NCBI GenBank assembly: GCA_034670405.1
Contig: JAXDDX010000212.1
Coordinates: 62,001-126,000 of the forward strand
Direction of reading: 5' to 3'
DNA: 64,000 nt
From: Hoplostethus atlanticus
Taxonomy: Eukaryota; Chordata; Actinopteri; Trachichthyiformes; Trachichthyidae
In this document: positions 871 through 32,704 of the stretch, one piece after another
How positions within the stretch are numbered: position 1 is the stretch's first letter
Layout: the number at the start of each line of letters is the position of its first letter
Notes under the pieces: generated by a model
Database searches by the model: none
The model's input: the letters and a program-made list of their open reading frames with translations, nothing else
Told to the model about the DNA's origin: nothing
Translations under genes and position numbers: made by a program

Positions 871-1137
871 CGGTGCGTCCCTCTGCCACGGTCTGCCTGG
901 AGGCCTGGCCGGCCCTGACCGTGGTGACCACCACCTTGTAGAGGGCGCCGGGTCGCAGGGCCAGGAAGCTGAGGCTGGTGGTGTCGCCCGCCACGCTCTC
1001 GTTCTTGATGACGCTGCTGTCGTGGACCAGCAGCACGCGGTAGGAGTCCAGATCCCCGGCGGCGCGTTCCCAGTGCGTCTGGAGGCTGTCGGTGCTGCCG
1101 CCATTAGAAACCCGCAGCATGGTCACCTGGGCGGGAG
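871..1137 (-). CDS. ptprb: ptprb exon: FN3 domain 7
   Basis: A 267-nt phase 1-1 exon with AQVTMLRVSNGGSTDSL, SYRVLLVHDSSVIKNES and LRPGALYKVVVTTVRAG. It corresponds to human FN3-7. The donor GTAAGA at 870-865 leads into an intron that runs past position 1. Confidence 0.92.
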
Positions 1138-4100
1138 CTGAGAGGAGGAAACATGGAGGCAAGAACGAATTAGAGATGGGCTACGATGAAGAGGAGTCAC
1201 TGGGACCTCACACGGTTAAAAGAGAGTTAACGACTCACCGGTCGATCCAGTCACGGAGGCCGAGCTGGTCAGGTTGCCGCTTTTGGTTGTCACGGTGACG
1301 GAGTACCGGCGTCCCGGGGCGAGGCTGCTGAAGGTGCACTCTCTGGCCTCCCAGGAGAGGGTCTTCTGAGCCACGACCCCAGCAGTCGGCAGGTCGACCT
1401 GTCTGAGGACCACGGTGAAGCCTTCCCACTCGCCTACAGCTCGACTCCACGAGACACTCAGAACGGTCTTGTCGCTGTGGCGGACGACAAGCTGCAGGAC
1501 GGGCCGAGGGGCTGTGGGGTAAAAACATCCATGAGGGTGAAAAGAGGTCGGGGTGGGATAGCAGTTGTTTTAACCTCCTTGGAGCACCAGGTGGGTGGAG
1601 TTAGTGGCTGCATAGGACACAGGAGTGAGTATCAGAAAGGTCACTGAATATACTTTTCTGTAAATTGGTGCAGTTAACCAAACCATCTGATGTTCCAGGC
1701 ACATGGAAACAATCACTATCAATTATTTGCAAATACTGATAAAAATGACAAGTAAACTAACTGACGTCCTCGTAGGATCAGTGGTGGACAACTTGACAAC
1801 GCATTATTATTTGCATGGTGATATTTTACCTCTAAATGTTTCTGTTGTTAGCTAGTTTATGCGTTTTATTGTGAAAGAGTTTTATATTTCTGTCCATTAC
1901 AGGACACCATAAGCTGAGTCAGCGACCTGTCAATGTTGTTGTTATTCCGTTAGTCGCCCATAGAGGTCAATAAAATTCATACATTAACTAATGCCCCTTT
2001 AAAATTTCAGAATAAAAGTCCTACAACTTTTACTTCATTTAACAGTATTAATTCGATACTTCCCAATAAAAAAACATGAAGTGCTGTTTGACATCAGACA
2101 GGTAAAGAGGAGGGTCTCATCCTGAATGAAATTGATGACATCATGAAACATTAAAGAAGCAATAAAAAAATGTAACTCTGGACCTTTGACTAAAAGTGAC
2201 TCACCCAGTCTTCCCTGGCAGTGCGCTGTGTTACCCAGAAGGCCGCTGTGCACGGTGACCTCTGCCCTGTAGAGCCGGCCAGGCACCAGGCCAGGGAAGG
2301 AGTACTGTCTGGCTGGCTTGCCCACGGTCTCGTTCACCATCGCCGCTGAACCGTTCCACAGCAGGACGCCGTAGTTCTCCCACTCGCCTGTGGGGGGCGA
2401 CCAGGTCACCCTGAGCGTTCTGCCGTCACTGAGGGCCGACATGGAGAGCCTGGACACCTGGTCAGGGACTGGAGAACGACCAGAGAGAAAGAAAAGATGG
2501 ATGAAGGATGCACATATGAACTGCAGCCTTGACACTTGAGGTTGCATCCAACAGTTTGGCAACATTTTCTCTTTCTCTAAATCCACGTATGATTAAAAAT
2601 GTCTAGTGCAGACACTGTTGAAATGAGATTTTGGTTTTACTATCACCAGTACAAATACTAGCACTGCTGCTCCTATTGCTACAACTACTAGTACTAGTAC
2701 TACTACTACTACTACTACTAATAATAATAATAATAATAATAATAATATATTATAAAATCAACCAGCCATAATAAAGCTGAAGACTTGCACATCCTCTGAG
2801 TTGGTGAAGCTCTACCTGTCCTCCCGGTGGTCTGGGCCTCCACGGTTTGGCCTCCAGCCGTCGTCCTGACAGACAGCTGGTAGCTACGCCCGGGGGTCAG
2901 ACCCTGGAAGAGGACCTGGGTGGCGTTGGGGGCCAGCCGGCGCTCCTGGGGGGCGGATCCCAGTGCTGACAGGGTCACCAGGTAGGCGTCCACACCCCCT
3001 TTGGGTGACAGCCAGGAAGCCCTCAGCGTATCCAAGCTGCCGTTGTTGTCCAGACGCAGGTCCGACACCGCCGCCGGGACTGACGAGGAGGGATTCAAAT
3101 TCAAATGACCTTTTCTCCCTGGCTCTTATTTCTTTACCTTCATATATGGACTTCTTATAAGGTAGCACCCCTGTATCATCTGACCAACTCTCCTTTGGCT
3201 TCAACCTGAGCTTTGGCTTTAACCCGTGCACTGTTCACTATCGGTTGCCTGTAATGTTCATTCTACTGTTTGTAGTCTAAGAAGTTGCTAAATACCTAAA
3301 ACATGAACGTAAAGGTCCTTACTGTCGGTAGCTTATAAAGTTAGAATGTAAACGTGTTCTACTATTGCAGTAAATTTGAATTGCAAAATGAATCTGAAGC
3401 GTTATGAATGGATGCAAACCTCAACCTGCTAAAGTAAAGATATCATTTTCATAATAAGCTGAGCGATAATTGCAGTCTGGTTCCAAAATGACATGAAACA
3501 AATTCAAAAGCTGCACAAAGTTTTGGTACTTTTATAGGATATTTATATAGGTACTTTTATAGGTACTCTATATTTTAAGGATACTGAAGCCACATTAAAG
3601 CAGACTACTGCACTGTTTAATGGATAGCAGCTAACTCAAGGCCTGACAAAATGATAATGGGTTTACAGGCTGGATCCTCTATAATTTGGATGTTCAGGTA
3701 AAAAAAAATTCAAAACTGTTTTTCAACTGAAATTTTCAACTGTTATCAGATTTCATTCTCAGGTATGAACTGATTTATTGTATTGAAACGGTGCAGGGGG
3801 TGGAAAGGGTAGAGCTCTAATGAGGCAGCCAGCTGCAGACAGAGGAAGGGCGGGGAGGAGAAAGGCCTAAAATATCCTGGAAACAACGGCGAAGAGCGTG
3901 ACGCTGGCACTGTGTGAGCAGGGAGGACGGAGAGGCGTTGGAAAGGAAAACAAACAGCCACAAAGTGAGTCAACTGTTGAGAAACCACCAACGCCGACCT
4001 GCTGTCATGTGTCCATTCCACTTAGAGTTGGAGACGAACGTACCACCAGGTCTGCACCGCTAATCGAAAATACACTGAAAGCACAATTAACTGCAATTTC

Positions 4101-7100
4101 CAAATTGAAAATAGGCTGCGATTTTTTTATCCTAAGGAAGGAACGTCAGATGGTCTTTCAATTGAAGTTCTTAATTTTCTTCAAACTCAGCAAATCATCC
4201 CATTTTGTCCCCTAATCTACATTTATTTTAAACAATTATGTAGCAAAGGTTATGTCTACATGTAATACACATCAAAATCACAATATTCAACCCTACAACC
4301 CTCAGTGGATAAGGGCTGATTAAATTACTGTATCTATAAAAGTACTAGTTCAGACATTTGTGTATCTTCTATTTTGTGTCATCTAAGCATCTATTTTGGA
4401 TTAACACATTATCTGAAGGTCATTATTTAATATCTCTAAGATTTAGAGGATCCAGTCTGTAAGAGTGTCAACCAAGGACGTTTCATGCGACCTACTGTCC
4501 TTTAGAAACCATTATTTTGCTTTCAATCATTTAGTAAGAGAAGGTCTCACAGCAGCTATCTCATTTGGTAATGAAACACCTCAGAAACAGAGACAGCTGA
4601 GGTGACGGACATGACGCTCGCTACCTGTAACAGCTTGCTTGGACACCGAGTTCTGCAGGCCAACAGCTTCCGTCGCCACGGTGACGCTGTACAGGGTCCC
4701 AGGCTGCAGGTCGCTGAGCGTGGTGGAGGTCGTGGTGTTTTTCAGGGTGGCGTTCCTCAGCAGAACCCCCTCCTGGTCCCTCAGCAGAACCCTGAACAGC
4801 TCTCTGCTCCCCGGACCAGCCTGCCAGGAAACACTGAGGCTGCCTGAGGAGGAGGACGCCACCTGGAGGCCACTGACGGAGGAAGGAGCTTCGGGAAGCA
4901 AAGGTGAGAAATTCAAGATGCGTGGTTTTGGATTAAGGGAATACACCAAGTATTCATCATCCATGTGTCTCCGGTACATCATTGGCTCTGGTGCTCCGTG
5001 CTAACACTTTAGCATACACTATGTTGAGTGATAGTAGGCTCCATGCTAACACTTTAGCATACACTATGTTGAGTGATAGTAGGCTCCATGCTAACACTTT
5101 AGCATGCACTATGTTGAGTGATAGTAGGCTCCATGCTAACACTTTAGCATACACTATGTTGAGTGATAGTAGGCTCCATGCTAACACTTTAGCATGCACT
5201 ATGTTGAGTGATAGTAGGCTCCATGCTAACACTTTAGCATACACTATGTTGAGTGATATTAGGCTCCATGCTAACACTTTAGCATACACTATGTTGAGTG
5301 ATTGGCTCCATACTAACACTTTAGCATACACTATGTTTGGTGACTGTAGGCAACTAGCATTATCTCAAAGGTGAGAAAACGAGAACTTGTAGCTGCTCAA
5401 AAGTTAAACGGTTAGTATTCTTAGATTATATGCAGGTAAATTGGGAATTCTGTTTATAATGTTGGGTTGGATTTCCTTCAGTTGGTGGATGGTGTGGTGG
5501 TGGATACACAAGGTACAGATCAGATTTTATGTATCCATAAAAAGTGCCTCAATGTACTATTTAGTGTCTTAAAACACCAAGAACTGTTTTGGGATACTCA
5601 AAATACGTGACTTCAGTCTGCTCTGGTTTTGGTTTCACACCACTTCCTTTTACCAGGGTGTAAACAACCGACAAGGGAACTCTTCCAATAAAGTGGGGTC
5701 AGAGTACATGAATACACATGTAAACACTTCAGGTTCCCACGTAGACACCTGTACTTAAAACAATGCAACTAGTGCATGTTATTGTTTCTGTGTATGTGAC
5801 ATGTATCATGTTGCATCCTGTGTCCATGCAGACCACATATGTTCAAGTGTTGGCCCCTCAACAATAGATTAACAGGCAAACTCTGACACATCTAAGGAGG
5901 TGACATATCTATACTAGTGTGTGAACCGTAAAGTAGTGTTGAAGTTGTGGTAGATGAATCCTGTATTAATTCTACACCGGATGCACAAACTTCTGGAACG
6001 TCTGCTCTTCCCATGAAATAGTCTGACAAGGTGAATCGAGATGAAAGCTCTGATTCCTTATTGATTTGACCTATTTATTAATATCATAGTCATTATTTAG
6101 CACATTCAACATAAGGAAAGAGCCAGAGTAGCATTGTGCCGGTGAGGTCAGAAGACCCAAGGGGCTTGAAACGTTCTTGGTGGCACCAAATAACCGGCCA
6201 AGACGCCTGACCATCTAACAAGAGAACTGTGGTGGTGAACGTAATCCAACCAACTACAGGAAACCCCCCAAAACGCAAGGGATTATGGGTATAAGGAGAC
6301 AAATGTTGACATCATGGACTGATGCTGTATGTTCAGATGTTTCTCCATGTGTTCTTAACTGGTATGAACACCAGAGAAGAGCAGACCATCATGCTTAGCT
6401 GAAGTTATCGGATTTGTTCTGACTCCCTCCTGGTGCCAGAATCGTACCGCCAATAAACAAGCTACTTGTGAGTCACGTGACTTTTGTCTACAAGCCATGG
6501 TTCACTTGTTAATTGGGCAGCGAGAACATAAACCAACCAAATACAAAAATGCAACAAAGTCAACTTTTCCACTCTGGTTCAGACCAAAGGAAATCACACC
6601 CAAAGGGCAGGAGGTGAGGAGAGGAGGAGGTGCAACTGAGTATTAGGAAGGTGTTGTTCACCGACTACGTATTGAAACAGTTCCTTACCTGTAGCTGCGG
6701 TGTTCTTGACTGGCGCAGCGCTCTTGTTCCCAGCAGTTGCCACCAGACTGAGAGCGTAGAGGGTACCAGGGATGAGGGCGCTGAAGCCCGACTGGGAGGC
6801 GGCAGTGCCCATGACACGGGTACTGCGACTGGCCCCGGTGCTGGTGTCCTCCAGGGTGAGATCATACCAGTCCACATGGCCAGCGGACGGCGGCCAAAAA
6901 ACCCGCAGGCCTGAGGTACCACTCTGAACCTGAGACTGACTCTTATGCTGGGCCTGGTCCAGCTGGACGTCCAGCCAAGCCGGGCTGACGGGGTCTGGGA
7001 GGGAAGAGAAGTTGGTGGGGTTAGAGTTGACCTGGACCTCTGGAGCTGATCCAGTTAGATATCTAGCTGAGCTGGGTCTAAGAGAGACAGGAAGTGGGTG

Positions 7101-10100
7101 GGTGACTGTTTGTCTGGACATCCGAAGAGTTTTGTTTCCAAATTAGATTTCTGACATGAAATAGATTCAATAGATTTCTATTGAAGTTGAAGTCATCTTA
7201 AGACCTTTGCTGTTATCGTTTCATTCCTTGACTGTAACTAGGATGAAGGCCTTCACACACAAACTTGACCTGCTTGCAAAAAAGTAATATTTAAAATACA
7301 ATACGTTGCCCTTTTTAAATGCCGAACAATGAACATCAGGTAACATTTTCCCACAATGGATCTATCCTGTTATTTAGGAATGAAACCCTTCTTGAGGACT
7401 GACTCAGATCGGGCCGGGACCTGATCCTGCTGGACGCCCTCTTGGGCCAACTGGGTCTAGAAAGGAAAATGTTTTCAGTTCATCTGGACAGGAGGGACCC
7501 GCTGACCGAGACGTTTAGCAGAGGTCAGTTTCGAAGAACCTCCTTCCACCTTTCACTCGCTGCAACTAAGCATGATTATGTAAAGCTCAAATAAATGTTT
7601 TTTACACAATGGCAGCGTAAGTGCATGGAAGGTCTCTGTGTATATCCTGCCTTTGTGCTCCAGCTGAAGGCCAGCAGCGGCAGCGATGGAGGAGGTTGAT
7701 AAGATTGTTTTGGTTGCTTTAAGAATGTGGCGTTTTCGCTATGGAGACCTGCATGTGTCTCGAGCAAGTGTGAACCCGGACAGGAAACGACAGGAAAAAA
7801 AAACAAAATGGAGAGGAGCGGAGCAGGACGGGGCTAGCACCCCCCTACTCAGCTCAATCCTGAACTATGGCCCTTTCTTAATAATGTTTCCTCCCCAAGG
7901 AGCCTTTGTTGCTTCCTAAGGAATCTTGTTGGCAGATCAGCGAAACCCCAAGGACAATGTCCGTTACTAATGCCACGAATTCAGGACCCTTGAGAAATCC
8001 ACTAGAAGATCAGAAGAGTTTTGTTCCATGATGAGAAATGTGACACCTACTCTGCCAGCCTGATCTGGCATGAAAGTAAAACACACTGGCAATAATTGTC
8101 ACTGAAAGTTATTTGTCATCCAAAGACCTCTGTTTCTAAAATAGCAATTGCTAAGATGATATAATGATGATATAATTTAGAAATATAGAGCAAGAACATC
8201 AGGTAACATTTTTTCCAAGATATATATTTGAATTAAAACCCTTCAAATACAGCCAGGCTTACTGTAACTCATCACTAATATCATTATTGTCCTATAATCA
8301 AAGTATTTGTAATAAAAAACTGTGATTACAGTGAACTAGCAATAATTATAATACCACAAATATCTCTTCTTTACCTCCAATAATAAATCTTAATCCAAGC
8401 TCTCAAGGAAAAGAGAATATCTTGGACTCTGGATGCAGATTTTTCAGTCTAATCTATCTGTCCTACAAAAACAAGCGGTGTGAAGGCCTCCTGTATCCGT
8501 TGGTCCAGAGAAACAATGCGAGGAGGGAAGTGGCTCTGGGGAGAGGGGGCGATGTGTCTGGAAACAAACACTTAAGATTAGATGCACGGCCATTGTTACC
8601 AAGCTCTCACTTTACAACCTCGGACGGTCTGAGCAGCTCTGTGTCCTCGCCAGGGCGCTCTGACAGACTAGCAGCCAAAAAGCTTTTCTGGCAAGACGGT
8701 CCTGGCAGCACCGCGAGGTTGTGGCCTTGACAATGTACAAAGGATGTACAGAGAACGAGTTAATGAAAAGGAGGAGGCAGCATGGGAAACTCACCTTTTG
8801 TCCACCGGTCGCAAAATGTCAATATCTTACCATCCAACTAGATTTTTTTTAAATGCATCAGCAGATCCACATAATGACTGGTTACCTGCCAGAGACTGGT
8901 ATGGTAGACAGGTTTGGTTGGTGGCTGGTGGAAGTTGTGTTGGCACAATATGGTCTGACTTATCTTGACACACAGACGTTGACATTTGAATCAAGAATAT
9001 ACTGACAAATTACTATTCACCATGAATTATAATGTTATTGTATTTCTAATGTATGTGTGTCCTCAATCTGATGGAACACATGAAGGCATTGTATATTGTA
9101 TATGTTATTTTAGATTTTATAAAAGTGAATAACAGTTTTATGAACTATGAAAGAAATAAAACACGTCTGTGTGTTCCACATCAGTTGAGGTATATGAATC
9201 ATAATACACTAACTGTATGTACACTGGGTCAAAAACAGGATTGTTAGGTTTTCTTAATAAATAATATTAATACTTAAATTTTGAACCACAATCCTACAAT
9301 AGATCAATCAATACAGTTGAGCTATCAAAGGTGGACTGTATAAAGATGCATCTTGGGCCAGACAATCTAGTATTTCTTTTAAATTTATATATTTATAAAT
9401 GACTGAACAAGCAACTAACTAACTAACTAACTAACGCCTAACCTGTCTTAATATGTGTTTCATTTCATTCGTGGGTTTAGCAATAGTTCCTTTTTTACAG
9501 TTTTCAAAAAAAAAAAGAGTCTAATAAAATTAGACTATATTAGACTATAGGAAAGTCCCTTTTCTTTAAAGGTAACCAGCATTGCACGTGCGTACGGTCC
9601 CACTAGTCCACAGAGAATGTACCAGGGTCACAGTTCACAAAAACAAATTCATGTTTTTTTACTAGTAATAATTTCAGCAGGATTAAATCTCATTAGAACA
9701 AAATATGTCTTACCAGTGAGCACTGACACGTTGGCCCTCTCTCCATCCATCTTGGATATGACCGTTAAATGGTGCAGAGTCCCGGGGTCCAGGTCCCTCA
9801 TCTCACAGATGTACACGTTACTATACTCCCCGTACGGGTCGCAGTCGGTGACATCAGCCCGACTCCTCTCATAAAACACCGTGAAGTTGCAGGCATGGCC
9901 GGCTGTGGTCAATTTAACAACAACAGAATCCGAGCTGGCGTTGATTTCTGTGAAGTTGACGGAGCACCTGGCAGCCTCTGTGGTCTGGATCTGAAAGGCG
10001 TCAGATGGAGACAGGTAAGCACTATAACTACAGGCTAAACACCAACAGTTCAACACGAGTCACCTGCAACTCACCCCGTGAAAACTCCACAACGAACCAA

Positions 10101-10131
10101 GTATCAAATAGCTTGTTGCGCATCTGAGCAT
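871..10131 (-). CDS. ptprb: ptprb, receptor-type tyrosine-protein phosphatase beta (VE-PTP), 5' part
   Basis: This is the N-terminal part of a single-pass receptor tyrosine phosphatase. VE-PTP acts at the endothelial surface on TIE2 and VE-cadherin. Coding exons, 5' to 3': 10075-10131, 9714-9990, 6689-6994, 4625-4888, 2816-3079, 2205-2468, 1239-1511 and 871-1137. The first encodes a signal peptide and each of the others one FN3 domain. All FN3-FN3 junctions are phase 1, the usual pattern for this family. The domains follow human PTPRB FN3 1-7 one for one, by my recollection of that protein. Examples are the Cys-rich first domain, GEWENY in the fifth, GEWEGF in the sixth and IKNES in the seventh. 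The remaining FN3 domains, the transmembrane segment and the phosphatase lie beyond position 1. The position next to lgr5 and zfc3h1 supports the name. Confidence 0.93.
1239..1511 (-). CDS. ptprb: ptprb exon: FN3 domain 6
   Basis: A 273-nt phase 1-1 exon with VLQLVVRHSDKTVLSVSW, GEWEGFTVVLRQ and LAPGRRYSVTVTT. It corresponds to human FN3-6, which has LQLRVKHANETSLGITW. The donor is GTGAGT. Confidence 0.92.
2205..2468 (-). CDS. ptprb: ptprb exon: FN3 domain 5
   Basis: A 264-nt phase 1-1 exon with VTWSPPTGEWENYGVLLWN and LVPGRLYRAEVTV. It corresponds closely to human PTPRB FN3-5 (WTPPAGDWEHY). The donor is GTGAGT. Confidence 0.92.
2686..2752. repeat. (TAC)n/(TAA)n microsatellite in ptprb intron
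   Basis: Runs of tac units pass into taa/aat units and then AT. Simple repeat in the intron between FN3 4 and FN3 5. Confidence 0.95.
2816..3079 (-). CDS. ptprb: ptprb exon: FN3 domain 4
   Basis: A 264-nt phase 1-1 exon. It encodes VSDLRLDNNGSLDTL, a Trp in RASW, and LTPGRSYQLSVRT, the typical FN3 E-F strand region of the VE-PTP type. It contains NGS and NAT sequons. Confidence 0.92.
4625..4888 (-). CDS. ptprb: ptprb exon: FN3 domain 3
   Basis: A 264-nt phase 1-1 exon. Motifs include SVSGLQV, SVSWQAG, FRVLLRDQEG and LQPGTLYSVTV, with the N-glycosylation sites NAT and NTT. The donor GTAGCG is weak but agrees in phase with the next exon. Confidence 0.9.
4990..5338. repeat. 45-bp minisatellite with a built-in palindrome (ptprb intron)
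   Basis: About seven copies of a 45-bp unit containing atgctaacactttagcat, whose ends (ATGCTAA/TTAGCAT) are inverted repeats around CACT. The period is a multiple of three and the unit lacks stops, so open frames run across it on both strands; they are not genes. Related sequence occurs at 16440-16510 and 34600-35240. Confidence 0.95.
6689..6994 (-). CDS. ptprb: ptprb exon: FN3 domain 2
   Basis: A 306-nt phase 1-1 exon. It shows the FN3 hallmarks: a Trp in RVFWPPSAG, a Tyr in DWYDLTLED, and the LIPGTLYAL turn before the last strand. It is longer than its sisters because of about 12 extra residues near the N-terminal end. The donor is GTAAGG. Confidence 0.9.
9714..9990 (-). CDS. ptprb: ptprb exon 2: FN3 domain 1 (Cys-containing)
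   Basis: The exon has 277 nt, starts in phase 0 after a TTTCAG acceptor and ends in phase 1 at GTAAGA. It encodes a divergent FN3 domain with four cysteines, around ARC, HACNF, DCDPY and YICEM. This matches the cysteine-bearing first domain of mammalian PTPRB. Because it starts in phase 0, it can accept either the signal-peptide exon at 10075-10131 or the mucin exon at 12030-14752. Confidence 0.9.
10075..10131 (-). CDS. ptprb: ptprb exon 1: signal peptide
   Basis: The ATG at 10131-10129 opens 19 codons (MLRCATSYLILGSLWSFHG), a typical short hydrophobic signal peptide, followed by a GTGAGT donor at 10074-10069 in phase 0. Human PTPRB also begins with MLR and a hydrophobic leader. The intron to exon 2 is only 84 nt. 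The exon is too short to stand out as an open reading frame. Confidence 0.85.
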
Positions 10132-10139
10132 TGCGGTCG

Positions 10140-10450
10140 TTGATTTAAATCCGTCCGTTCAATTAACAACAAAGAGGATGCTCCGAAGTTAGCTGTCATA
10201 ACTAGCGTCTAAAATTCGAGAAACGTGTCAGCGCGTCACTAATTAAACAGAATACCCCGCCGGTATGCGCGCGCCACAGCTCTGCGCGTCGTCTCCGTGC
10301 GTCCTGTCTCCTGTGCGTCCCCACGGTGCCCACGCACATCTACATCCCTCTCCCCACAACCTGCAGCATCACTGGATGAAGTCTGGTGAACAAAGGTGTC
10401 GCGCTGTTGCGGTGACGGAAATGACTTATCGAGCATCCACCCTCAGACCT
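10140..10450 (-). promoter_or_regulatory. Putative promoter of the short ptprb transcript
   Basis: The 300 bp upstream of the ptprb signal-peptide exon are locally GC- and CpG-rich (gccggtatgcgcgcgccaca) in an otherwise AT-rich region. No clear TATA box is visible. Assignment rests on position and composition only. Confidence 0.35.
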
Positions 10451-11117
10451 GAGAGGTTTTTCTGTGGAAATCTCTTCCAAAAAAGCCTCAGTCAGTTGTT
10501 AATACGTGACAAATAATCCACACACTTTTCTCTGAGGGATCCATCGATCTTAAACTTTCACTAAACTCTGAAACAGAAGCAGACAGACTCTCTCCAGCCC
10601 AACACCCCACCCTTCTTTCCTTCCTGCCTGTGGTGGACTTTCTCTGGGGCCCTTTAGCATCAAACTAACCACAATCAATTAGGCAGCATCAACTATTGTT
10701 ATGCTAGAGTCAGAGTTATGAATTTCCCATCAGGAAATCGCCTCAGATCCATGGCCAAAAACAACGCTCTAATAATAGCACGGTTAGTTAACATTTGGAG
10801 CAAAAAATCTCATCATTTAATAATTCATAATTATCCTTATGGTCCAGGTTAGTCCAATCAATATTTGTGAACATGAATAACTCTCAAACCTTTAAAGTCA
10901 CCAACATGGAAGAACAAGCACATTTCAGTCTATTACATGAAAGTACATTTATATTTTAGATGTATTTGACCCAGAGTGACTTAGTGGACAGGCAGCGTTC
11001 AGTGCCTTGCTCATTGGCTGTTGTGGAGATCAAACCCATGACCTTTCGGATGCGGGATGGTTTCTCGAACTACTGGACCACCCACCTTAACCCTATCTGA
11101 GCTAATTTAGTATCACT

Positions 11118-11164
11118 CGCGCGCGCACACACACACACACACACACATACACACTCACACACAG
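11118..11164. repeat. (GC)n(AC)n microsatellite
   Basis: A cgcgcg stretch followed by an almost uninterrupted AC run. Confidence 0.95.
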
Positions 11165-11876
11165 AGTTTCCCCCCAAAATCCTCATACTTCTAATTACCC
11201 AATGTAAAAAACTGTTTAAATTTCATTTTCTGATCTTGGTTTCTGTTCGATGTGAGATGATAAGCTGGGGTTCCGCATTGCGTAAACTTAATTTTATGTT
11301 GAATCAAGTTCAGGACGCAGTGCAGGGTGTACGTTCTGTAGGCTACCTGGTCTTCTACACTCCTGTCAACCCACTTGGGTAAAAACTAAGAACCCAAACT
11401 GGCTGTAGACATGGAACATCCAAACAAGTTCAATATACTGTATGTTGGATAATCATCACAACTAGGAAAACCCTTAACTATATTAATATTAACAGTGCCT
11501 TTAAAGGTTCACCATATTAATAAATGATCATAATATATCTGTGATGACTCAATGATTACTCAGCTAGGTGCTCAGATTTCTCCCTTTCAAAACTCACTTT
11601 CGACTCATAGTTTGTTTTGGAACAAAAACTCTCCCCATTGGAGCTTTAAGACACTCAACCTTGTTCTCAAGACAAATATGAACATGACAAAGCAGTATTA
11701 TTATTCCAGTATTGAACATGGTGATATATATCCCCTCCAGGGATCAATAAAGTATCTATATATTACCTTCACTAGAGGTTATTGTTGGATCTATGCTCTA
11801 ATTAGCTAGCTTACTTAGTGTTTATGTCAATTGCAGGCCACCGTAGCTCAAGGGGACGGGAGGGGCTGTGCCAGAG

Positions 11877-11901
11877 AGGTAGGTAGGTAGGTAGGTAGGT
11901 T
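11877..11901. repeat. (GTAG)n tetranucleotide repeat
   Basis: Six tandem gtag units inside an interspersed repeat. Confidence 0.85.
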
Positions 11902-12029
11902 ATGTAAGAGGAGGTCGGTTCTATCAGTGTTGTTGCAATTCCTACTGGTCACCAATAGAGGTCGATGAAGGTCAACCATTACTTAATGCCCCTTTAAATT
12001 GTCACAAATTTTAAGCAGTTGTTACTTAC

Positions 12030-12080
12030 TGATTTGGTGGTGGTCAGTTCTGTAGTCAGAGGTGTAGTTGTTGGAAGTAC

Positions 12081-12122
<42 letters not shown>

Positions 12123-14752
12123 GGTAGCTGCAAGAGTCGTCGTTGTACTGGGTGTAGTGGTGGAAGTGGTAGTGGGTGTGGTTGTTGGAGTGGTGGGTGT
12201 GGTTGAAGTGGTAGTGGGTGTGGTTGTTGGAGTGGTGGGTGTGGTTGTAATCGTAGTGGGTGTGGTTATAGTCGTAGTGGGTGTGGTTTTGGGTGTGGGT
12301 GTGGTTGTAGTCATATCAGGTGTGGTTTTGGTGGTGGTGGGTGTGGTTGTAGCCATATCGGGTGTTGTTATAATCATAATGGGTGTGGTTTTGGTGGTGG
12401 TGGGTGTGGTTGTGGCCATATCGGGTCTGGTTATAGTCGTAATGGGTGTGGTTTTGGTGGTGGTGGGTGTGGATGTGGTTGTAGTCATATCGGTTGTGGT
12501 TTTGGTGGTGGTGGGTGTGGTTGTAATCATATTGGGTGTGGTTATAGTCGTAGTGGGTGTGGTTTTGGGTGTGGGTGTGGTTGTAGTCATATCAGGTGTG
12601 GTTTTGGTGGTGGTGGGTGTGGTTGTAGCCATATCGGGTGTTGTTATAATCATAATGGGTGTGGTTTTGGTGGTGGTGGGTGTGGATGTGGTTGTAGTTA
12701 TATCGGGTGTGGTTTTGGTGGTGGTGGGTGTGGTTGTAGCCATATCGGGTCTGGTTATAGTCGTAATGGGTGTGGTTTTGGTGGTGGTGGGTGTGGATGT
12801 GGTTGTAGTCATATCGGGTGTGGTTTTGGTGGTGGTGGGTGTGGTTGTAGTCATATCGGGTGTGGTTTTGGTGGTGGTGGGTGTGGTTGTAGCCATATCA
12901 GGTCTGGTTATAGTCGTAATGGGTGTGGTTTTGGTGGTGGTGGGTGTGGATGTGGTTGTAGTCATATCGGGTGTGGTTTTGGTGGTGGTGGGTGTGGTTG
13001 TAGCCATATCGGGTCTGGTTATAGTCGTAATGGGTGTGGTTTTGGTGGTGGTGGGTGTGGATGTGGTTGTAGTCATATCGGGTGTGGTTTTGGTGGTGGT
13101 GGGTGTGGTTGTAGCCATATCGGGTCTGGTTATAGTCGTAATGGGTGTGGTTTTGGTGGTGGTGGGTGTGGATGTGGTTGTAGTCATATCGGGTGTGGTT
13201 TTGGTGGTGGTGGGTGTGGTTGTAGCCATATCGGGTCTGGTTATAGTCGTAATGGGTGTGGTTTTGGTGGTGGTGGGTGTGGATGTGGTTGTAGTCATAT
13301 CGGGTGTGGTTTTGGTGGTGGTGGGTGTGGTTGTAGCCATATCGGGTCTGGTTATAGTCGTAATGGGTGTGGTTTTGGTGGTGGTGGGTGTGGATGTGGT
13401 TGTAGTCATATCGGGTGTGGTTTTGGTGGTGGTGGGCGTGGTTGTAGCCATATCGGGTCTGGTTATAGTCGTAATGGGTGTGGTTTTGGTGGTGGTGGGT
13501 GTGGATGTGGTTGTAGTCATATCGGGTGTGGTTTTGGTGGTGGTGGGTGTGGTTGTAACCATATCGGGTGTGATCATAGTCGTAATGGGTGTGGTTTTGG
13601 TGGTGGTGGGTGTGGTCGTAGTCATATCGCGTGTGGTTGTAGTCATTGTGGGTGTGCTTTTGGTGGTGGTGGGTGTGGTTGGAGTGGTGGGTGCGACCGT
13701 TGGAGGAGAGGGTGTGGCTTTGTTGGTAGTTGGTGTGGTTGTAGTCATAGCAGGTGTGGTTGTTGGAGTAGTGGGTGCGGCATTGGTGGTAGCGGGTGTG
13801 GTTGGGGTACTGGGTGCACTTGTGCCAGTGGGTGGGACTGTTGGATTTGTGCCGGTGTCTCTTGGTGTAGCCGTGCTCTGGGCTGCTGTAGTTTTGGTAC
13901 CAGATGAGGTCGCTAGGGAGACTGTGTACGTTGGGGGCAGGGTCACGGTAGTTGCAGGTATGGTTTTGATCATTGTAGCTGTGGCTTGAGGGATCGACGG
14001 CGTTAATTGATCTGTCGAAGGCACATGGGAAGCCATAGGAGAAGCTGCAGCTGCGGTGGATGTGGCTGGGACTGGAACATAAGTCTGTCTATGTAGTATC
14101 CTATCGTCGGTACTTGAATGTGCGGTATGCGCGGTTGACTTGGTGTCAGAAACATCAGATAAACCAACAGTAGCCGCGACTTCGGCGCCAGAAGACACAG
14201 ACGCGACCGCAGCGGTAACCGCTAAATCTGTCATGTCACTTGCGTCGGGCACAGAGGAAATCGTAGAGGAAACCAGAGTCACGGCTGCAGTTGACACCGG
14301 CTTTTCTCCGAGAGAGGAGGTGGAAACTCCGTGGTGTGCTGAAGGCGTCTTGGCTTCGGTCCCGAGCTCTGGGGCATTTCTGGTCGAAGCACTTGCTGAT
14401 ACATCCGTGGATAGGTCGGTCATGGACAGAGCTGGGCTTGACCAGACAGTATGGCTGCTATTCAGTGCTGACAACTCTGTGACGGAAGTTGAGACGTCTG
14501 GGGCGAAGTCTGTTGTTACCGACCTCCTGGTTCGAGTTTTGATGATGTCATTCATGAAGGTGGCGACCCGGTTAGTTGCGCTGTGGACTTTTGATGTTGT
14601 GACTTGTTGAGCGGTCCTGTGGATTTTTGCTGTATTTGATAACTGTTCATTAATCATAGTGATGGCGGGAGTTTTCATGGCGTAGACGGTGCTGGTGAGT
14701 CCCAGTGGTTCATGCGTGGATGAATACAGTGTGGTTGAGATGGAGGTTGTGC
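12030..14752 (-). CDS. Giant mucin-like Thr/Pro/Ser exon
   Basis: A 2723-nt exon encoding 907 residues, opened by a TTTTCCAG acceptor and closed by a GTAAGT donor in phase 0. The first 300 or so residues are a Ser/Thr/Ala-rich stalk without exact repeats. The rest is almost pure Thr, Pro, Lys, Met and Ile in TTTKTTP-type repeats, ending in a run of Thr codons (12081-12122). Such sequence is expected to be densely O-glycosylated and extended, like the N-terminal mucin stalk of CD45. It has no transmembrane segment. The open frame runs on to a stop at 11994 but the donor makes read-through unlikely. The repeat number may be wrong if the assembly collapsed this region. Confidence 0.8.
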
Positions 14753-17700
14753 CTGGAAAACAAGGAGAAAAGTACTTGAGTAACTTGGCAGAAGGAAAAG
14801 GACAAACATACATTCAACATTTGGGATTACCATCACTCAGATTTCAAACTGTTTTTAAACTTTAATCTTTCTTGCTAACAGAGCTGAGACCAAGTCCCTT
14901 CACTAGATCTTAATGGGACTTAAAGGGATCTTAGGGTGTAGGGTCTCTCCATCAGAATACCGAAACACAGTCTGGATATATGACTCATTTATGGATGACA
15001 TTACAGTCCAGGTCTTGAAGTTTCAGAGAAACTCAAAGTTTCTCAAAAAACTCAAAAACTCATTTAGTTGGCTCAAAGTGGCAACTAAATGGATGATTTT
15101 AGGTTTGGGATTTCACCATTTCACACACAGCAAGAGCTATGGTCTAAAACCTGTTAGTGTTTTTCACCAGAACATCAAAAAGTGAGATCATTACAGTAGA
15201 TGGAAAAGTTTCCTGCCCCCGTGAAAAAAGCCACTTGTCTGATGCAGCTCTAATCTTGTGGCTTCATTCTCCAGAAATGTCAAAACCTTCTGGCATGTTG
15301 TCGGGGTACGTTTTGGCCGAGGTGCTTTCTCAGCCCCCTTCGTGACCAACTCTGACAGGAAGAACACTGCTGACGTTTTTCCTGGCTGACTGAGTGGGCT
15401 GGCAGTAGGCTGACAACAATGTGTAGGGAAGTCAGTATCAGGAGTGTCACCGTCTGCCTCACAAGCCAAGGGATGGCTGATAGATTATAGAATCACCTAG
15501 ACAGGCTATCCTAAGCTAGCATGAATTAATGTCAAGATGAACTGAGGCATGCAGGCCAATTTATCATATTGTTCAGCATATTTCTTAATAAGATCATTTC
15601 CATTACATTAAGCATTAAGCTGATGCTTGTGTCCAATTACTACTTTAGATCACCTACATTACAAGCAAGAAATAGTAAGGAGGTCAAGGGTCAGAGCCAT
15701 TGTACCGTGAGACTCCCTGAGTATATATATATATAATATATCAATATAATTAATATTATTATTAATTATATTGTATAACTATTATTATTATATAACTATT
15801 AAATGTTACAAATTTCAACTTTTTAAGATGTTCATATGGTGGAAAGGGATTGCTTGACCACCGTCAGTGATTCCTCCTCATCCAACTCACCTGTACTTGC
15901 ACATAAAGACGTCATCACGCCGTTCCCTCCTGAATCCACCTCATATTTGGCCCAATTCGAATACCGCGGGTCTCCTCGGATCACCAGCCGCACACCCTGC
16001 TTTTTCAGGTACATCGGCGTCTCCGCCAAGCCGAGTGCCCCCTTCTCGCCGTGGCATTTCCACGCCGGTGCGTCGGTGCAGTTGCTGAGGGCGACGAGGC
16101 GGGCGTGGGGTGGCAGGTTGGGGCTGGGATTGGCCCACAGGCACCGGGAGGACTGAGCGTGGATCAACCTCATGCCACCCGTCCACTCCCACTGCTGAGC
16201 GGGATCTGTGGCATCGCACTGCCCCAGAATGACGGTCTGTCTGCGGGTTAACAGACACAACCTCCTCGGGGCCTGAATGATGTGGAAACCCGCTGGAAAC
16301 ACACACAGTCCAAACACAAGGGGTGTCAGTTTAGTAAATCCTGAGGCAAAGACCCTGCATCTTTAAAGAAATACGTCAGGTTTTTGGAAGATCGTTCGGT
16401 TGGTCAGTTTACCCGTTGTGATGAGAACATAAGACAACATAGTGTACTGCATGTGCTCCATGCTAAAGTGTTAGCATGCTAAAGTGTTAGCATGGAGCAC
16501 CGGAAGATGATAGTAGGTGACAAGCATTATCCATAGTAAGAAGTAATGAGATTTTAGAAATAAAAAGCTGTTAGTTGATTTCACCATATTTAAAGAACTT
16601 GTCTCACTTCCTGTTTTTAATATTTGATGAAGGATTCAGAAGCAAACTCATTGTCCATGTGATTTGATCAGCCTATTTCCTGTTTTTGTATTTATGATCA
16701 TGACATTATAAAAAATGTAGTTGACTTGCACCGCTGCCCATCTTGGCCAGGTCACTGTTGCAAAAGAGATTTTTGATCTCAGTGAGTCTTTCCTGGTTAA
16801 ATAAAGGGTTTATTATTATTGATCATATGGCATGTCAGCATGGAGCAGCAGAACCAATGATCTACCGGGGACACGTGGATCATTTCGGTGTCTATGTTCT
16901 CATCACTTAAATTAAATTGACCAACAACCTTGGTGTATTCCTTTAAGCAATAAGCCACGAGAGGTTTTGGTTCAGACCTACAGTGATGTTAGCTAAGAGG
17001 CATTGTTAGCCAGTTAAACCCTCTTCGCTTTTCTCAAATCTCTGTAAAGTCTCAACCGGCTTATTGGTTTTATAAAACGCACCACTGTAATATAAGAGAT
17101 CGAGAAATCTTTTCCTTGTTAGTCAGTAATAATTAAATGTTATTTTCCAGCTAGTAATATAGTTCTTGAACAGTAACTAAACATCCTGGTTGCTTGATGA
17201 GTGTGATTTCATACTTAAGTCAGAACTTTAGGACCAAAACTTTCAGTATTATAAATATAATTTGCTACCAAAACTTCCGAGCTCTTATTTTACTTACTTA
17301 TATTGGTTAAATTCCTGGGGGACAAAGTGGAAGAATGACCGATGACTGACAAGATATTATTATTTGGTTAATGTGATAAATAAAGATCTTTGTTCTCCAT
17401 AATGGAAAAGCTACAAGATGGAGTTTGGACTCGTTTGGCTACGGTATGGTGAGAGCCCACACCTTACCACACCCAGGTGACGCCTGTGCCAACAGTCAAC
17501 GAGTCCAATACAAAGTGCAATAAAGGCTAGTCCATCCCTACTGAAAACTATCAATATCGCAGCAAACCTATTGATTATACATAATATCCTATAGGAACAT
17601 TATAGTGGTACCATAGGAGATAGAAATACCACAAAGTACAGTAAGGATTCACTATCCAGTACACAGACACACTATAAGATCCTATAGGAATATTGTAGGA

Positions 17701-18536
17701 ATATTATTAGATTTGGGGGATTTCTGTTAGGGATGGAGGACTGAATAGATGATCTTTTATCGGGCATTTTTACCAAATCCTGTCCTCACCAACTTCCTCC
17801 GGATAATTAATCTTCCTTATGGGCTTTTATTTAACCTCTTCAGTCTCAATAAACAACTTTAATCTCAGCCACATAAAAAGCAGTTTGTGTTTTATCTTCA
17901 CCACTTGGTGTTTGGGTAGATTTACAGCAGTAGAGCAGACTGGAGACTTAATGATCTTCATCCTTTCAACTTTCATTTCTCAGAACATGTGACGTAAGAC
18001 GAGATTTATAGCAAAGGACCTTTAGAAATATTTGGACACCATTTATTTTCTCAGGAAGTAATAATTTGCTTATCAAACTGTGATTCCATTAGAGGTCACT
18101 GTCACTTTAATGCAGCCCTCTAATTTAACACAGAAATACTCTTTTGATTGAATTATCACAACGTTACAGTGGTTTGCAAACAATTGGACTTCATTTTATG
18201 TTTCTCAACAGTTGAGACAGAATCTAACAGCCTGACAGAAACCAGGTTAAAACAACTTCTATCAGTAGAAATAACAAGTCTGAACCCACAGGCCACATAA
18301 CATTCAGCCACATGTAATCAGAATCAAAAATGTTTGAGTGACCCTTCTTTGTATACAGATAAGGGTGAACTCCTCAGTTTCCGTAGTTGGCTATCTCCTC
18401 TCGGTATGAACCTGTGGCTCAAACGTCCTGATCACGGTCCAAAACCATCACAGCAGTACTTACATGCAGAGGGGAATCGCAGAAGAATAAATAAAACCAA
18501 AAACAAGGTATCCATTTTACTCTGGTACAGTTTCAT
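12030..18536 (-). CDS. Signal peptide + R-type lectin + mucin-like exons upstream of ptprb (probable alternative ptprb 5' end)
   Basis: Three exons fit together in frame: 18464-18536 (signal peptide, ends phase 1), 15891-16292 (lectin domain, phase 1-1) and 12030-14752 (mucin-like, phase 1 to phase 0). Together they encode about 1066 residues of a secreted or extracellular N-terminus. None contains a transmembrane segment or a credible stop; the mucin frame ends at a strong GTAAGT donor. The next phase-0 acceptor I can identify on this strand is ptprb exon 2 at 9990, giving lectin-mucin-FN3-phosphatase. Alternatively this is a separate gene whose last exon I failed to see between 10.1 and 12.0 kb. 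The exon chain is fairly secure; the join to ptprb is inference. Confidence 0.72.
12360..13570 (-). repeat. 111-bp (37-residue) coding tandem repeats inside the mucin exon
   Basis: A unit carrying TTTKTTPITTITRPDM, ATTTPTTTKTTPDM and TTTTSTP recurs every 111 bp. Unit marks (ggtctgg) lie at 12901, 13012, 13123 and onward at the same spacing, with degenerate or partial copies nearer 12360-12800. Units in 12900-13570 are nearly identical in DNA, pointing to recent unequal exchange or gene conversion. Confidence 0.92.
14820..15830. other. Intron between lectin and mucin exons
   Basis: A minus-strand frame of 92 codons lies at 15191-15469 (CCQPTASPLSQPGKTSAVFF). It lacks splice sites and recognisable domains and is not called as a gene. 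Nothing else stands out. Confidence 0.5.
15721..15745. repeat. (TA)n microsatellite
   Basis: Alternating TA followed by AT-rich low-complexity sequence, in the intron between the lectin and mucin exons. Confidence 0.85.
15891..16292 (-). CDS. R-type (ricin-like / mannose-receptor Cys-rich) lectin domain exon
   Basis: A 402-nt exon, phase 1-1, flanked by TTTCCAG and GTGAGT. It encodes 134 residues with six cysteines in the contexts RRLCLL, LGQCD, SSRCLW, LSNCTD, WKCHG and TSLCAS. It has the beta-trefoil QxW motif (QQWEW) and a late Trp (SNWAKYEV). The order and spacing follow the N-terminal cysteine-rich domain of the mannose receptor family, which is an R-type lectin; in MRC1 this domain binds sulphated sugars. 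Sugar binding here is inferred, not shown. Confidence 0.82.
16365..16950. mobile_element. MITE-like inverted-repeat element with palindromic core
   Basis: The left end (tttaaagaaatacgtcag ... gttggtcagtttac ... gtgatgagaacataag) reappears as a reverse complement on the right (gtctatgttctcatcact ... ttgaccaacaac ... gtattcctttaa). This gives terminal inverted repeats of roughly 70 bp with mismatches. No coding sequence lies between them. The same ends flank 34541-35350. Class is not assigned. Confidence 0.7.
16453..16500. repeat. 48-bp palindrome
   Basis: The outer 14-bp arms gtgctccatgctaa and ttagcatggagcac are perfect reverse complements, with two inner ATGCTAA/TTAGCAT palindromes. It is a single-copy relic of the 45-bp minisatellite unit. 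Confidence 0.9.
18464..18536 (-). CDS. Signal-peptide exon of the lectin-mucin transcript
   Basis: The ATG at 18536-18534 opens 24 codons plus one base. A charged start is followed by a hydrophobic core (DTLFLVLFILL) and a small-residue end (RFPSA), then a GTAAGT donor. Joined to the lectin exon it gives ...PSA-S-GFHII, with a plausible signal-peptidase site after SA. Phase 1 matches the next acceptor. Confidence 0.68.
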
Positions 18537-19969
18537 GCGTCTACCAGGTTCAGATGAGCAGAATAGAAGTGTTGAAGGGAAGTGCGCCTTTCTGGGGAGG
18601 AAAAAGTCAGCGAGCAGCGCTTCCTTCTATTCAATTGTTTTGGAGGTTTCATAGTAAAGGACCCCGCAGCGACGTGGAAATGCTCTTCTCTCGGAAATAC
18701 CAAAGCACATCCCAGATGTTCGGTTTGTTCTAGTAACTCTGATGCAGAAAACATTCAACAAGACACACACGATGTGATGGAGATGCACAAGTATTACATT
18801 CACTTATTTCACACATGCAGACATTATAGAAACACTGAGAAGAAGAAAATTACCTCATGCTTTGTTTTATTATCGTTTTATGCAACTTCACATCATGTGG
18901 AATAGAAATACCACATATAGACATTCATTAATGCCACACTATGAGTAAATATACCTTTACAGTACATATTGAAGAATTTTATTATTATTCTTTTCAAGTA
19001 ACAATCACAAATACATTTATTTATCCATTCAAACTACTGGAAGGTTTGACAAGAAAAAATGCATTTGAATCAAAAATGTAAAGGTTACATGCAAAAATAC
19101 ATCTAACCTGCAGAACAGCGCCTCAGTATATTATCTTTTAGGTGTTTTGTCCCCCAACAGAGAGCTAGCAGAACAATTGGTGGTAAGTAGTTGAGTTAGA
19201 GAGGAAACTGTAAAAATAATGATTAACTGAAAGGTTTCATTCCAAAATGCTATATACACGTATATATACTACCTGGGATTCATCAGGCAACATTTAAAGG
19301 ACTATATTGACATAAACAGGACTACTGTTTAAGCAGATCTCTTAACCCATATTGTGCTTTAATGTCAGAAATCATTTTCTAAGAGCTGTTGTCAGTTTTA
19401 AAATCCGGCATGTGTCATATTGAAAATGAAACTCTTCAATTACGTCTGGAAGTAACCATTGTTATTGTAAATCCCCAGTGTTTTCACATAGACAGTAGCT
19501 ATCTAGTTTATTAGTTCAGTTTGGGTTTGTTTCTGCTCCCTGAAAGGCAGCAGGCACCGTGGAAGCAATGGCAGTAATACGAGATACTTGCAGAGGTGTA
19601 AAATATAAATAGAACAAAAGTTAAATTAAATTAAAACAGTAGAACAACATATAAAGTATCTATTTTACTTCTCTACAGCACAAGAGCAAGAACAGAATAG
19701 ATGGTGGTGAATGATACATGTTACTGCCATGACTTTACTTTTTACAATCATAGTCACTCATGATGTTTTATGACAAAGCGAGATGTCCACCATTTGAAAA
19801 ACAAGAAAACGCTTCACAAACAAAGTCAGGTGCTTTTCAATGAGTAGGAGGTCGGCTCAATCCTTGGCTGTCAAAATGATGATGGGCTATCTTTACAGAG
19901 CCTGAATGATGAACTTCAGCTAATAATATTTTTTTTCAAAGTGGATGCATTGCATTTTGGAATGAAGGA

Positions 19970-29003: not shown

Positions 29004-32000
29004 GTAAGTAAAGCAGATATTAAAAACTGAGTTTTGTCTGGAGAACTTTGCACACTTTAAAAGGTACATATACTTCAAATTGTATTTTTATAGGATATTC
29101 AGGAGTCTGTTGTTAGAGCGGTTTAATGCTTCACTCAGGACTCTTCTGTCTCTGCTATTGTTTTTTACATACTTCATGTATTGATGTATATGTGATTTAT
29201 GCCTGTTCTTATGCACCTGGCTGCAAGGTGAATTTCCCCTCAGGGACAATAAAGTTTAATTGAATTAATTGAAAATATGTGTAGAAATTTTTCTCACAAT
29301 ATACAAACTATATTGTACATGTAGACAACATTCATTTGAAATTTATGTGAGTGTCCAAAAGATATTTTGGATATGCTTGCAGATTTTTTCAACAGGACTT
29401 AAGAAGAAAACGTGTTTTCAAAACATAGTTTGAATGAATGAATTGAATGAATATTTATATGTGCACATTTTTGTAATCAATCTCAATAAAATAAAATATC
29501 TCTATAATAGTATATATATATATATATATATAATATATATCTCTATCTCTCTAAATATCACATATTCTGTATAGTAATATATGTGAAATGTGTTGTTTTG
29601 CACTAGTTTTATTACAAGTATGTTTGTAGTACACTACAAGTAAGGGTTTTCTTCTCAGTGGCTGGAGGAGTTGAACAATATCCAGTAACAGTTTAGTGTC
29701 CTAACTGTAGCTCTGTGAGGAAAACCTGCCCATAAAAACTCTAGATTTCTTTATTTTATTTAACATTTATTATGAAGTCGATTACTGTTAGAACAAATTC
29801 TTATTCACAATGACGGCCTGGCAAGAGGAAAAAGGACTCTTGACGGGGAATTTAAAAAAAAAAAGGCTAGAAAAACATAATAAAACAGACACATAAAAAA
29901 CACAAACATAATGGACAGACACATTTAAGGACTTGGAGACAAACAGCGTGACAAATAACAACAAGAAAACCACTAAAATCAATTAAACCACGCGACAAAA
30001 ACACAGCTGCACCAACAGAGAAGTTAGTGTCGTTATTTTGGTGAGAAACTTTTGGACTGAAACTGTCCGACTGGAACGAGACCCGGCTTATTTCAATAAT
30101 GGATCTTATTAATTGTTCACAATGCCAGAAAAAACATTGGAGCTCAAATTGTTGCAAGGCGGCCTAACAAAGGCCCCGGCAGCCAGAAGGCCTCATGGTA
30201 ACACAACGCCGCTGGTGAAAACCTCAGAACTCCAGTTTTGGTGATTCTCATGTTTTAACTTCAGTTGAAGGATTTCATGCTGCACAATTCTACAACTCTT
30301 GAGTTTATGAAACCTTTTCAAAACTAATTCGATAGACACAAAAATGCCTTTTCTTAGTTAATTTTGGAGATACAGCGATACGTTTATTTTTCATCAATTT
30401 AAAAGAAATGTACTTATTTGTCAACACTCCTCATCTTGTTATAATAAAAATAATTTCAATCTTGAGTCATGTCAACTTCACTTTAAGTACATTTTTCTTG
30501 CCACTGCACCAGTTGCTGCAAGAGAAGTAAAGAAATGAAGCAAAGTTACCATAAGTGGTGCAGACACACAAAAAAGAGGCAAATAAAAACTTTTTTCATC
30601 AAATAATAAACTCCTGATAGCAGTGTTACCACCGCCTCCAGCATCCCTGCTTGTGTACTTTCCTCAGCCCCAACTTGGAAATGTATAGAAAGGATGGATT
30701 GGACAGGGTGGGGGCTGGGATTCAGGGGCCCCATACCTTTGGCAGGGGCCCCCAAACCAGTAGGTCCGCCCCTGAGGGCAGGAAGTGGTGTTTATTGGTC
30801 CAACATCAGCTGGTAGGTTTGATCTCCTTCAGAAGAGACAAATACAGAAAACTGATTCTGTAACAAATAAAATAAATGTACCTTCAGAAAGAGAGAAAGC
30901 AACTGACTAAAAGTAATTTTAGATAAATATAAATATGGCTGACCAATATAGGCAACAATATACATTAACAAAGCATTACAATTCATTTGGGTTTTATAAT
31001 TGATAAAGTTTAAATTGTGTAAGTAAAATAACTGAAATGCAATAGCCTGTATCCTTCATGACCTACACCAAACCCTCACGGTGATGTGTTCATCATCCTA
31101 CAGCTGCATTCTGCCACATGCTAGTCCTGTGATCTTCTGATGAAAGTTTTGAACATCGAAACGCCAATAAATTTTCACTACCGATGCGAGAAAACTCCTG
31201 TGATCTCGGACAGTAAAGTCGAGATTTGTGAACCGAACGAAGCAAGCCAAGACCCAAACCTGTGATTTAATCAGGACACGAAGCCTGGGAGACCATGGTA
31301 TGCTGCTTTTCTTGACACATTGATGGCAACAGATTAAAAAAAAATTAAATTCCTTTCAGGCTTTCCTCAGCTCTTCCCAGGAGTAATGTGTGATCCACAC
31401 AGACATGTCGCAAATCATCTTCCTCACAAAAATGAAGACGTTCATGCAGCTTCAGAGTTTTGTTTTGCAGGAAGGTGATTCTTAGTTGTTTTTTTCTGAA
31501 GTTCATTTCTAATACTGCTTCTCTAATGTTTTCCTGCTGTTTTTTCCTGCTTTTTGTGTTTCTCAACACCTCGGGCACATGTTCTGGTTGGGAACTGTTA
31601 AAACTACTATAATAACCTTTTACGATCGTACAAAATCCATCATCCACTTCCTTTGCCAGAGGATCAGATCTCGCTCTCTTGATGGAATCAACCTGAATTA
31701 AAACCTGTATGATTGTTTTTAGGAGGTTTTGTTCACAGGAGTAATTGAACTGTCTGAGGTTATAGGAAGAACACTGGATTTTCACTACAATACAGAACAT
31801 CAATTTCTATGGAAGAACCAACGTATGTTGAGGAATTCTTCAATAATGGAAACTACATCTGAACAGCACTCAGCACAGTTATAAAGTACAGTATAATAAA
31901 AGCATCAACAACCAATTAAATCTGAATTTCACTGATGATGTTGAGGACAAACTGATGATGTTGAGGACCAGCTGATGATGTTGAGAACAAACTGATCATG

Positions 32001-32704
32001 TTGAGGACCAGCTGATGATGTTGAGAACAAACTGATCATGTTGAGGACCAGCTGATGATGTTGAGAACAAACTGATCATGTTGAGGACCAGCTGATGATG
32101 TTGAGGACAAACTGATGATGTTGAGGACAAACTGATGATGTTGAGGACCAGCTGATGATGTTGAGGACCAGCTGATGATGTCGAGGACAAACTAATGATG
32201 TTGAGGACAAACTGATGATGTTGAGAACCAGCTGATGATGTTGAGGACCAGCTGATGATGCTGAGGACAAACTGATGATGTTGAGGACCAGCTGATGATG
32301 TTGAGAACAAACTGATGATGTTGAGGACCAGCTGATGATGTTGAGAACAAACTGATGATGTTGAGGACCAGCTGATGATGTTGAGAACAAACTGATGATG
32401 TTGAGGACCAGCTGATGATGTTGAGGACCAGCTGCTGCTGAGCTGGTTCCTCCGCGGGGTCAGGCGGGTTTGGGCTGCAGCGGGCAGGGGGGGGGTTAAC
32501 AGCAGCAGCAGTCTGCTTTGCTTCATGACACCTTGCTAATCTTCACGCCAGCAGTGAAATGTTAAGGAGCGCTGAATGTAACCTGCTTTGATCAGCGTCA
32601 CACCACCGCCCTTCACTGCTGCTTTATCAGCCCGATTACAGCGACAAATCCCTCCACGCATGTTACATCAAGTTTCACAAGGATGTTAGCCTCCGCCTTA
32701 GTGA

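Follow-up and report, generated by a model that had tools for sequence, protein, structure and literature searches.

In the mannose receptor family, an N-terminal CysR domain is followed by FN2 and C-type lectin domains, and in the receptor phosphatase CD45 (PTPRC) an extension rich in O-glycans stands before the FN3 domains and varies between isoforms. VE-PTP (RPTP-beta), the product of ptprb, has been described as an FN3 receptor (PMC3522677, PMC5336234), and the available main text of PMC5336234 does not contain the words lectin, ricin or mucin. In zebrafish, 5' rapid amplification of cDNA ends (RACE) on RNA from embryos at 26 hours post-fertilization gave a short form of 1892 amino acids with a signal peptide and 15 FN3 domains (PMC3522677). 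A lectin domain of PTPRB is spoken of in the accessible part of PMC9900141. Here we analyse the ptprb locus of the fish Hoplostethus atlanticus in a window of 64,000 nucleotides (bases 62001-126000 of contig 212, JAXDDX010000212.1, of a 633-Mb genome), in which all ptprb exons lie on the minus strand. We propose that three exons upstream of the ordinary start are very probably the 5' end of a long ptprb isoform, which would share exon 2 with the short form.

A preliminary description of the window had claimed an upstream minus-strand chain of three exons (signal peptide, lectin and mucin) with compatible phases, and had noted that the mucin exon and the ordinary signal-peptide exon both end in the phase in which FN3 exon 2 begins. 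Recomputing the boundaries and phases confirmed this chain (Table 1): the mucin exon ends in phase 0 and without a stop codon, the ordinary signal-peptide exon likewise ends in phase 0, and the same exon 2 starts in phase 0. As both sets of first exons are spliced in phase 0 to this exon, the choice of start would decide whether the receptor carries a lectin head. The joined long chain is free of stops over 1704 amino acids and the short chain comprises 657, each including the seven FN3-type exons of the window. Two of the ptprb exons in the window give Pfam fn3 matches; shared exon 2 (9714-9990) by itself matches no Pfam family. Upstream of the long-form start there is an in-frame TAG. The long forms of other fish start at the second Met, and the start common to them, the second ATG at 18515, is also the one preferred by the start-context rule. 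The remaining FN3, membrane and phosphatase exons lie before the window start on the same contig and strand and in the same order, ending near contig base 44031, as found by tblastn of the Genypterus protein P0003 along the contig. Thus a single gene contains the FN3 array, a membrane span and one phosphatase domain, which identifies it as ptprb; with the upstream exons, it spans about 36.5 kb.

Annotated proteins from fish to human bear out the idea, put forward in that description, of a lectin-bearing second 5' end joined to FN3 exon 2. A search with the lectin against PTPRB of fish and mammals had been suggested there. Queried alone, the lectin gave 183 candidates, of which 29 proteins reach E <= 0.001. 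All 29 are from fish or sturgeon and have FN3 domains, and 27 also have a phosphatase domain in precomputed Pfam annotation; human and other tetrapod proteins were found later. By name, 14 are receptor-type tyrosine-protein phosphatase beta or beta-like, 13 are protein-tyrosine-phosphatase, one is an unnamed product and one, from sturgeon, a hypothetical protein. The nearest matches are from Centroberyx affinis (84%) and then Myripristis murdjan (76%). The sturgeon lectin as query reached only fish (six matches from 178 candidates, itself included) and added Amia, Esox and Merluccius. A third query, a chimera that included a human N-terminus, found 106 proteins from 813 candidates, among them human P0034, human-type P0035, many other mammals, platypus, turtles, gharial, kiwi, salamander, caecilian and frog, as well as fish. 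A lectin profile built from fish matches 130 of 134 sequences (133 proteins and the window chain), which is not a frequency, because the searches had selected for the lectin. The four sequences without a match are the short forms P0126 (Myripristis) and P0129 (Polymixia), P0132, which starts inside the mucin, and P0133, which has another start.

The order signal peptide, lectin, neck, Ser/Thr-rich stalk, FN3 and phosphatase is found in one chain in Enoplosus (2656 aa), Genypterus (2599) and Trachinotus (2508), and ptprb proteins of other fish can be aligned, in this frame, with both the lectin exon and the initial, non-repetitive portion of exon 3. Myripristis models contain both 5' ends, since P0002 and P0014 carry the lectin and the short form P0126 begins with MPKCATSYLILGLLWSFHR-IQTTEAVKC, whose counterpart in the window is MLRCATSYLILGSLWSFHG-IQTTEAARC; the short signal peptide of the window also matches MLRCAASYLIIGLLWRFFG of Polymixia. 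In the Myripristis isoform P0132, a Thr-rich mucin runs straight into IQTTEAVKC, which is the predicted join of the mucin exon to exon 2 (from 12030 to 9990 in the window), and P0001 also joins the mucin side to IQTTEA.

If these exons are used as proposed, transcription from the upstream start would yield a protein with signal peptide, R-type lectin, mucin stalk, full FN3 array, membrane span and one phosphatase domain, and transcription starting near 10.1 kb would yield the short form with its own signal-peptide exon. The lectin could then serve as a head that binds ligands or glycans at a great distance from the membrane. We infer that two separate promoters may be at work. The stretch with short exon 1 (10001-10500) has a GC content of 0.50 and an observed/expected CpG ratio of 1.04, and that with the long start (18501-19000) 0.38 and 0.62, respectively, a contrast that fits two different promoters without proving them.

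Several observations weigh against a long isoform of this kind. The long start has no CpG-rich stretch, whereas the short start has one, which leaves the long-form promoter unproven. Most of the matches look like products of automatic gene prediction, and errors are plain in some of them: in Myripristis P0002 the mucin exon is missing and exon 2 is preceded by intron-like sequence, in P0001 and P0006 a large part of the stalk is translated in a different frame, and other models have no stalk. Human P0034 is presumably of cDNA origin, judging by its clone-style name. Finally, the zebrafish RACE product is one cDNA, of the short form, and the word lectin occurs nowhere in the available text of PMC3522677.

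The mucin exon encodes no Cys and consists of 52% Ser and Thr and 12% Pro, and the long, Cys-free tandem repeats rich in Thr, Ser and Pro are those of a mucin-type stalk, which would be O-glycosylated. Across 33 fish models including the window, the segment from lectin to FN3 has 908 residues in the window and 14-725 in the other 32, where several short values stem from models that seem to miss the mucin exon; the 56 residues in sturgeon may be real. In tetrapods, the segment from the lectin end to the first FN3 Cys has a median of 97 residues (range 87-124, n = 90 of 95). By this sequence comparison, the giant mucin is a fish feature and is longest in the window among the 33 models. Tandem units of 111 and 222 bp account for much of its length, and the repeat count may vary between individuals or reflect an assembly effect. 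Because repeats of 111 bp, a multiple of three, also leave the opposite strand open, the length of the mucin frame by itself is weak evidence of coding, and we rejected it as proof. An open frame of 663 amino acids indeed lies antisense to the repeats on the plus strand (window 11998-13989), likely a by-product of the repeat length being divisible by three. Repeat copies compared at offset 111 differ at 13 first, 22 second and 28 third codon positions, with 14 synonymous and 32 non-synonymous codon differences, and this comparison shows no clear sign of purifying selection between copies. A mucin stalk in fish is not mentioned in the titles and abstracts found on PTPRB, although this does not prove that none has been described.

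Between the lectin and the repeats lies a non-repetitive neck that is alike in many fish. It contains RTRR within KTRTRRS, which resembles a proprotein-convertase site by the known consensus. It would be tempting to read the conserved RxKR/RxxR motif as such a site, at which the lectin head would be cut in the Golgi and secreted, leaving a mucin-FN3 receptor, although we consider this rather unlikely. Of the 78 columns that can be compared across 16 necks, only Arg235 (P1) and Thr233 never vary, the P4 residue Arg232 is kept in 14 and ties for third with three other columns, and the full R-x-[KR]-R is kept in 13. In addition, the Cys-free mucin exon leaves no disulphide to the stalk to be expected, provided that the six lectin Cys pair among themselves, as seems plausible. 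However, these 16 rows are a selection from 21 segments of at least 200 residues, made with the motif already known. The five left out (P0001, P0006, P0021, P0029 and P0030), which are in another frame, repetitive or too divergent, have no motif, and they include Amia P0030 with its long stalk. The motif reads RTGR in Micropterus, QTRR in Morone and QTSR in Trachinotus. When all 24 fish that have a complete lectin are counted, over the 130 residues that follow it, 12 contain RxKR and 17 contain RxxR, and many of those without the motif are models that lack the mucin exon. In tetrapod linkers, the full RxKR is found in 1 of 95 and the minimal RxxR in 85 of 95, at another place than in fish (about a dozen residues past the lectin in P0035). 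A basic patch in the neck may also have another use, such as glycan binding. That the long VE-PTP of fish carries a releasable lectin, with a convertase site in the neck freeing a soluble R-type head while the receptor keeps a giant mucin rod, we hold to be improbable. If true, the choice of start together with processing would set the reach for ligands and shed a lectin from the producing cells; the fish neck motif makes cleavage easy to test.

On profile scores and a structure model, the second upstream exon is an R-type lectin, or CysR domain, with a predicted beta-trefoil fold. It encodes six Cys, scores 27.6 bits against PF24562 (CysR_MRC2_N), narrowly above the cut-off of 27, and 27.1 against Ricin_B_lectin, below the cut-off of 29; the lectin of P0035 falls below both cut-offs (25.7 and 25.6, respectively). 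The best of five predicted models has a mean pLDDT (predicted local distance difference test) of 84.4, and the other four range from 62 to 36. The C-terminal half alone found no match in the PDB up to E 10. A search of the fish's genome with the lectin exon gave one match at 100% and, on another contig, a weak one (26% identity), which is the CysR domain of a mannose-receptor-type gene (L006:4783-5136, G000 contig 14; PF24562, 89.9 bits); the search reported no further relative of the exon. Membership in the C-type mannose receptor family itself was ruled out, because mucin and FN3 follow the CysR domain instead of FN2 and C-type lectin domains.

The preliminary description had also called this lectin one of the sulphated-sugar type, a label that does not hold up well. 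Binding of sulphated sugar, as by the CysR domain of the mannose receptor (MR), would be expected to rely on stacking of Trp117 on the sugar, but the corresponding residue in the window is Tyr, in a register taken from a low-probability profile alignment (9.4%) that is weak. In fish, that position is Thr, Met or Leu in 5 of 24 sequences (including Enoplosus and Larimichthys) and His in 2 of 24; with a one-residue shift of register, tetrapods have Tyr in 92 of 95 and Trp in 3. None of 119 full lectins has a Trp at the Trp117 position, which lies three residues before the last Trp, and Endo180, with Ser at the Trp117 position, does not bind sulphated sugar according to the accessible part of PMC4635314. 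For these reasons, we consider it quite unlikely that the ptprb lectin binds sulphated sugar in the manner of the mannose receptor. Hardly credible is a separate secreted or membrane gene upstream of ptprb that ends in an unrecognised exon between 12030 and 10131: the 1.9-kb gap before the ordinary exon 1 would give it room and repeats by themselves keep long frames open, but the mucin exon has no stop, P0132 and P0001 show the join, and we rejected it because fish and tetrapod homologues hold lectin, linker, FN3 and phosphatase in one chain.

Table 1. Features of ptprb in the window (window positions)
Feature	Position	Strand	Details
Long-form exon 1, signal peptide MKLYQSK-MDTLFLVLFILLRFPSA	18464..18536	-	73 nt, donor GTAAGT, end phase 1
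Long-form exon 2, six-Cys R-type lectin (CysR, predicted beta-trefoil)	15891..16292	-	402 nt, CAG acceptor, GTGAGT donor, phase 1-1
Long-form exon 3, neck and Thr/Pro-rich mucin	12030..14752	-	2723 nt = 2 + 907 codons, CAG acceptor, donor GTAAGT, phase 1 to 0
Start of exon 3 up to the tandem arrays (neck and flank), alignable with other fish ptprb	13818..14752	-	
KTRTRRS convertase-type motif in neck	14520..14540	-	residues 230-236 of joined long chain
Mucin tandem-repeat part	12157..13817	-	overlapping rows, period 42, 63, 111, 123, 222 bp
Short-form exon 1, ordinary ptprb signal peptide MLRCATSYLILGSLWSFHG	10075..10131	-	57 nt, donor GTGAGT, end phase 0
Shared ptprb exon 2, first FN3-like domain	9714..9990	-	277 nt, CAG acceptor, donor GTAAGA, phase 0 to 1
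Shared FN3 exon	6689..6994	-	phase 1-1
Shared FN3-type exon	4625..4888	-	phase 1-1
Shared FN3-type exon	2816..3079	-	phase 1-1
Shared FN3-type exon	2205..2468	-	phase 1-1
Shared FN3-type exon	1239..1511	-	phase 1-1
Shared FN3 exon	871..1137	-	phase 1-1

Tandem repeats also occur elsewhere in the window. Two minisatellite arrays with a 45-bp period, about 30 kb apart (4948-5352 and 34879-35284), have translated frames that are alike on opposite strands, and a further region on the minus strand (31996-32542) is open in all three minus-strand frames.

Annotations of a long PTPRB with a lectin already exist for many vertebrates, and it is mentioned in print (accessible part of PMC9900141), and the long ptprb isoform proposed here is thus mostly not new. 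What remains of interest is that the lectin head occurs in fish, sturgeon and human alike, that the texts consulted pay it scant attention, and that a basic motif lies next to it. A head kept over this range is a candidate ligand-binding part of VE-PTP.

Set beside the described systems, the long isoform proposed for this window has close counterparts in the beta or beta-like PTPRB models of Centroberyx, Myripristis, Enoplosus, Genypterus and Trachinotus, which have the same domain order; the neck is common to the window, Enoplosus, Genypterus and Trachinotus, and the exon-2 join to the window, Centroberyx and Myripristis. Whether the N-terminally longer human isoforms use the same exons had been left as a question, and for the lectin they do: human-type P0035 (2215 aa) has it at residues 20-147, with 34% identity to the window lectin over 131 amino acids (E 6e-26). 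Like the proposed long form, the longest human isoform (P0035 here, isoform 3 in the accessible part of PMC9900141) consists of signal peptide, R-type lectin, linker, FN3 array and one phosphatase domain. Residue 57 is Asp in P0035 and Asn in P0034 (Homo sapiens, clone-named, 919 aa), the difference discussed as variant p.D57N in the same source. Another human protein, P0128 (partial, 1407 aa), shares this N-terminus and is missing roughly half of the lectin along with the first part of the linker, a gap of the kind that exon skipping would leave. The human linker differs in having about 97 residues (the tetrapod median) against 907 mucin codons in the window, and in P0035 it has no full RxKR motif, unlike the neck of the window.

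The mannose receptor family (MR, DEC205, PLA2R, Endo180 and the chicken IgY receptor) shares with the window an N-terminal R-type beta-trefoil fold on a receptor. However, FN2 and C-type lectin domains, which follow it in that family, are absent from the Pfam list of P0035, and the window chain has mucin and FN3 in their place. As for the "CD45-like mucin stalk" of the preliminary description, the mucin-type stalk stands, and the likeness to CD45 is one of analogy only: in both, a mucin region lies in front of the FN3 domains of a receptor phosphatase, but the extension of CD45 comes from cassette exons, whereas in the window it is a single exon that belongs with an upstream first exon and a lectin.

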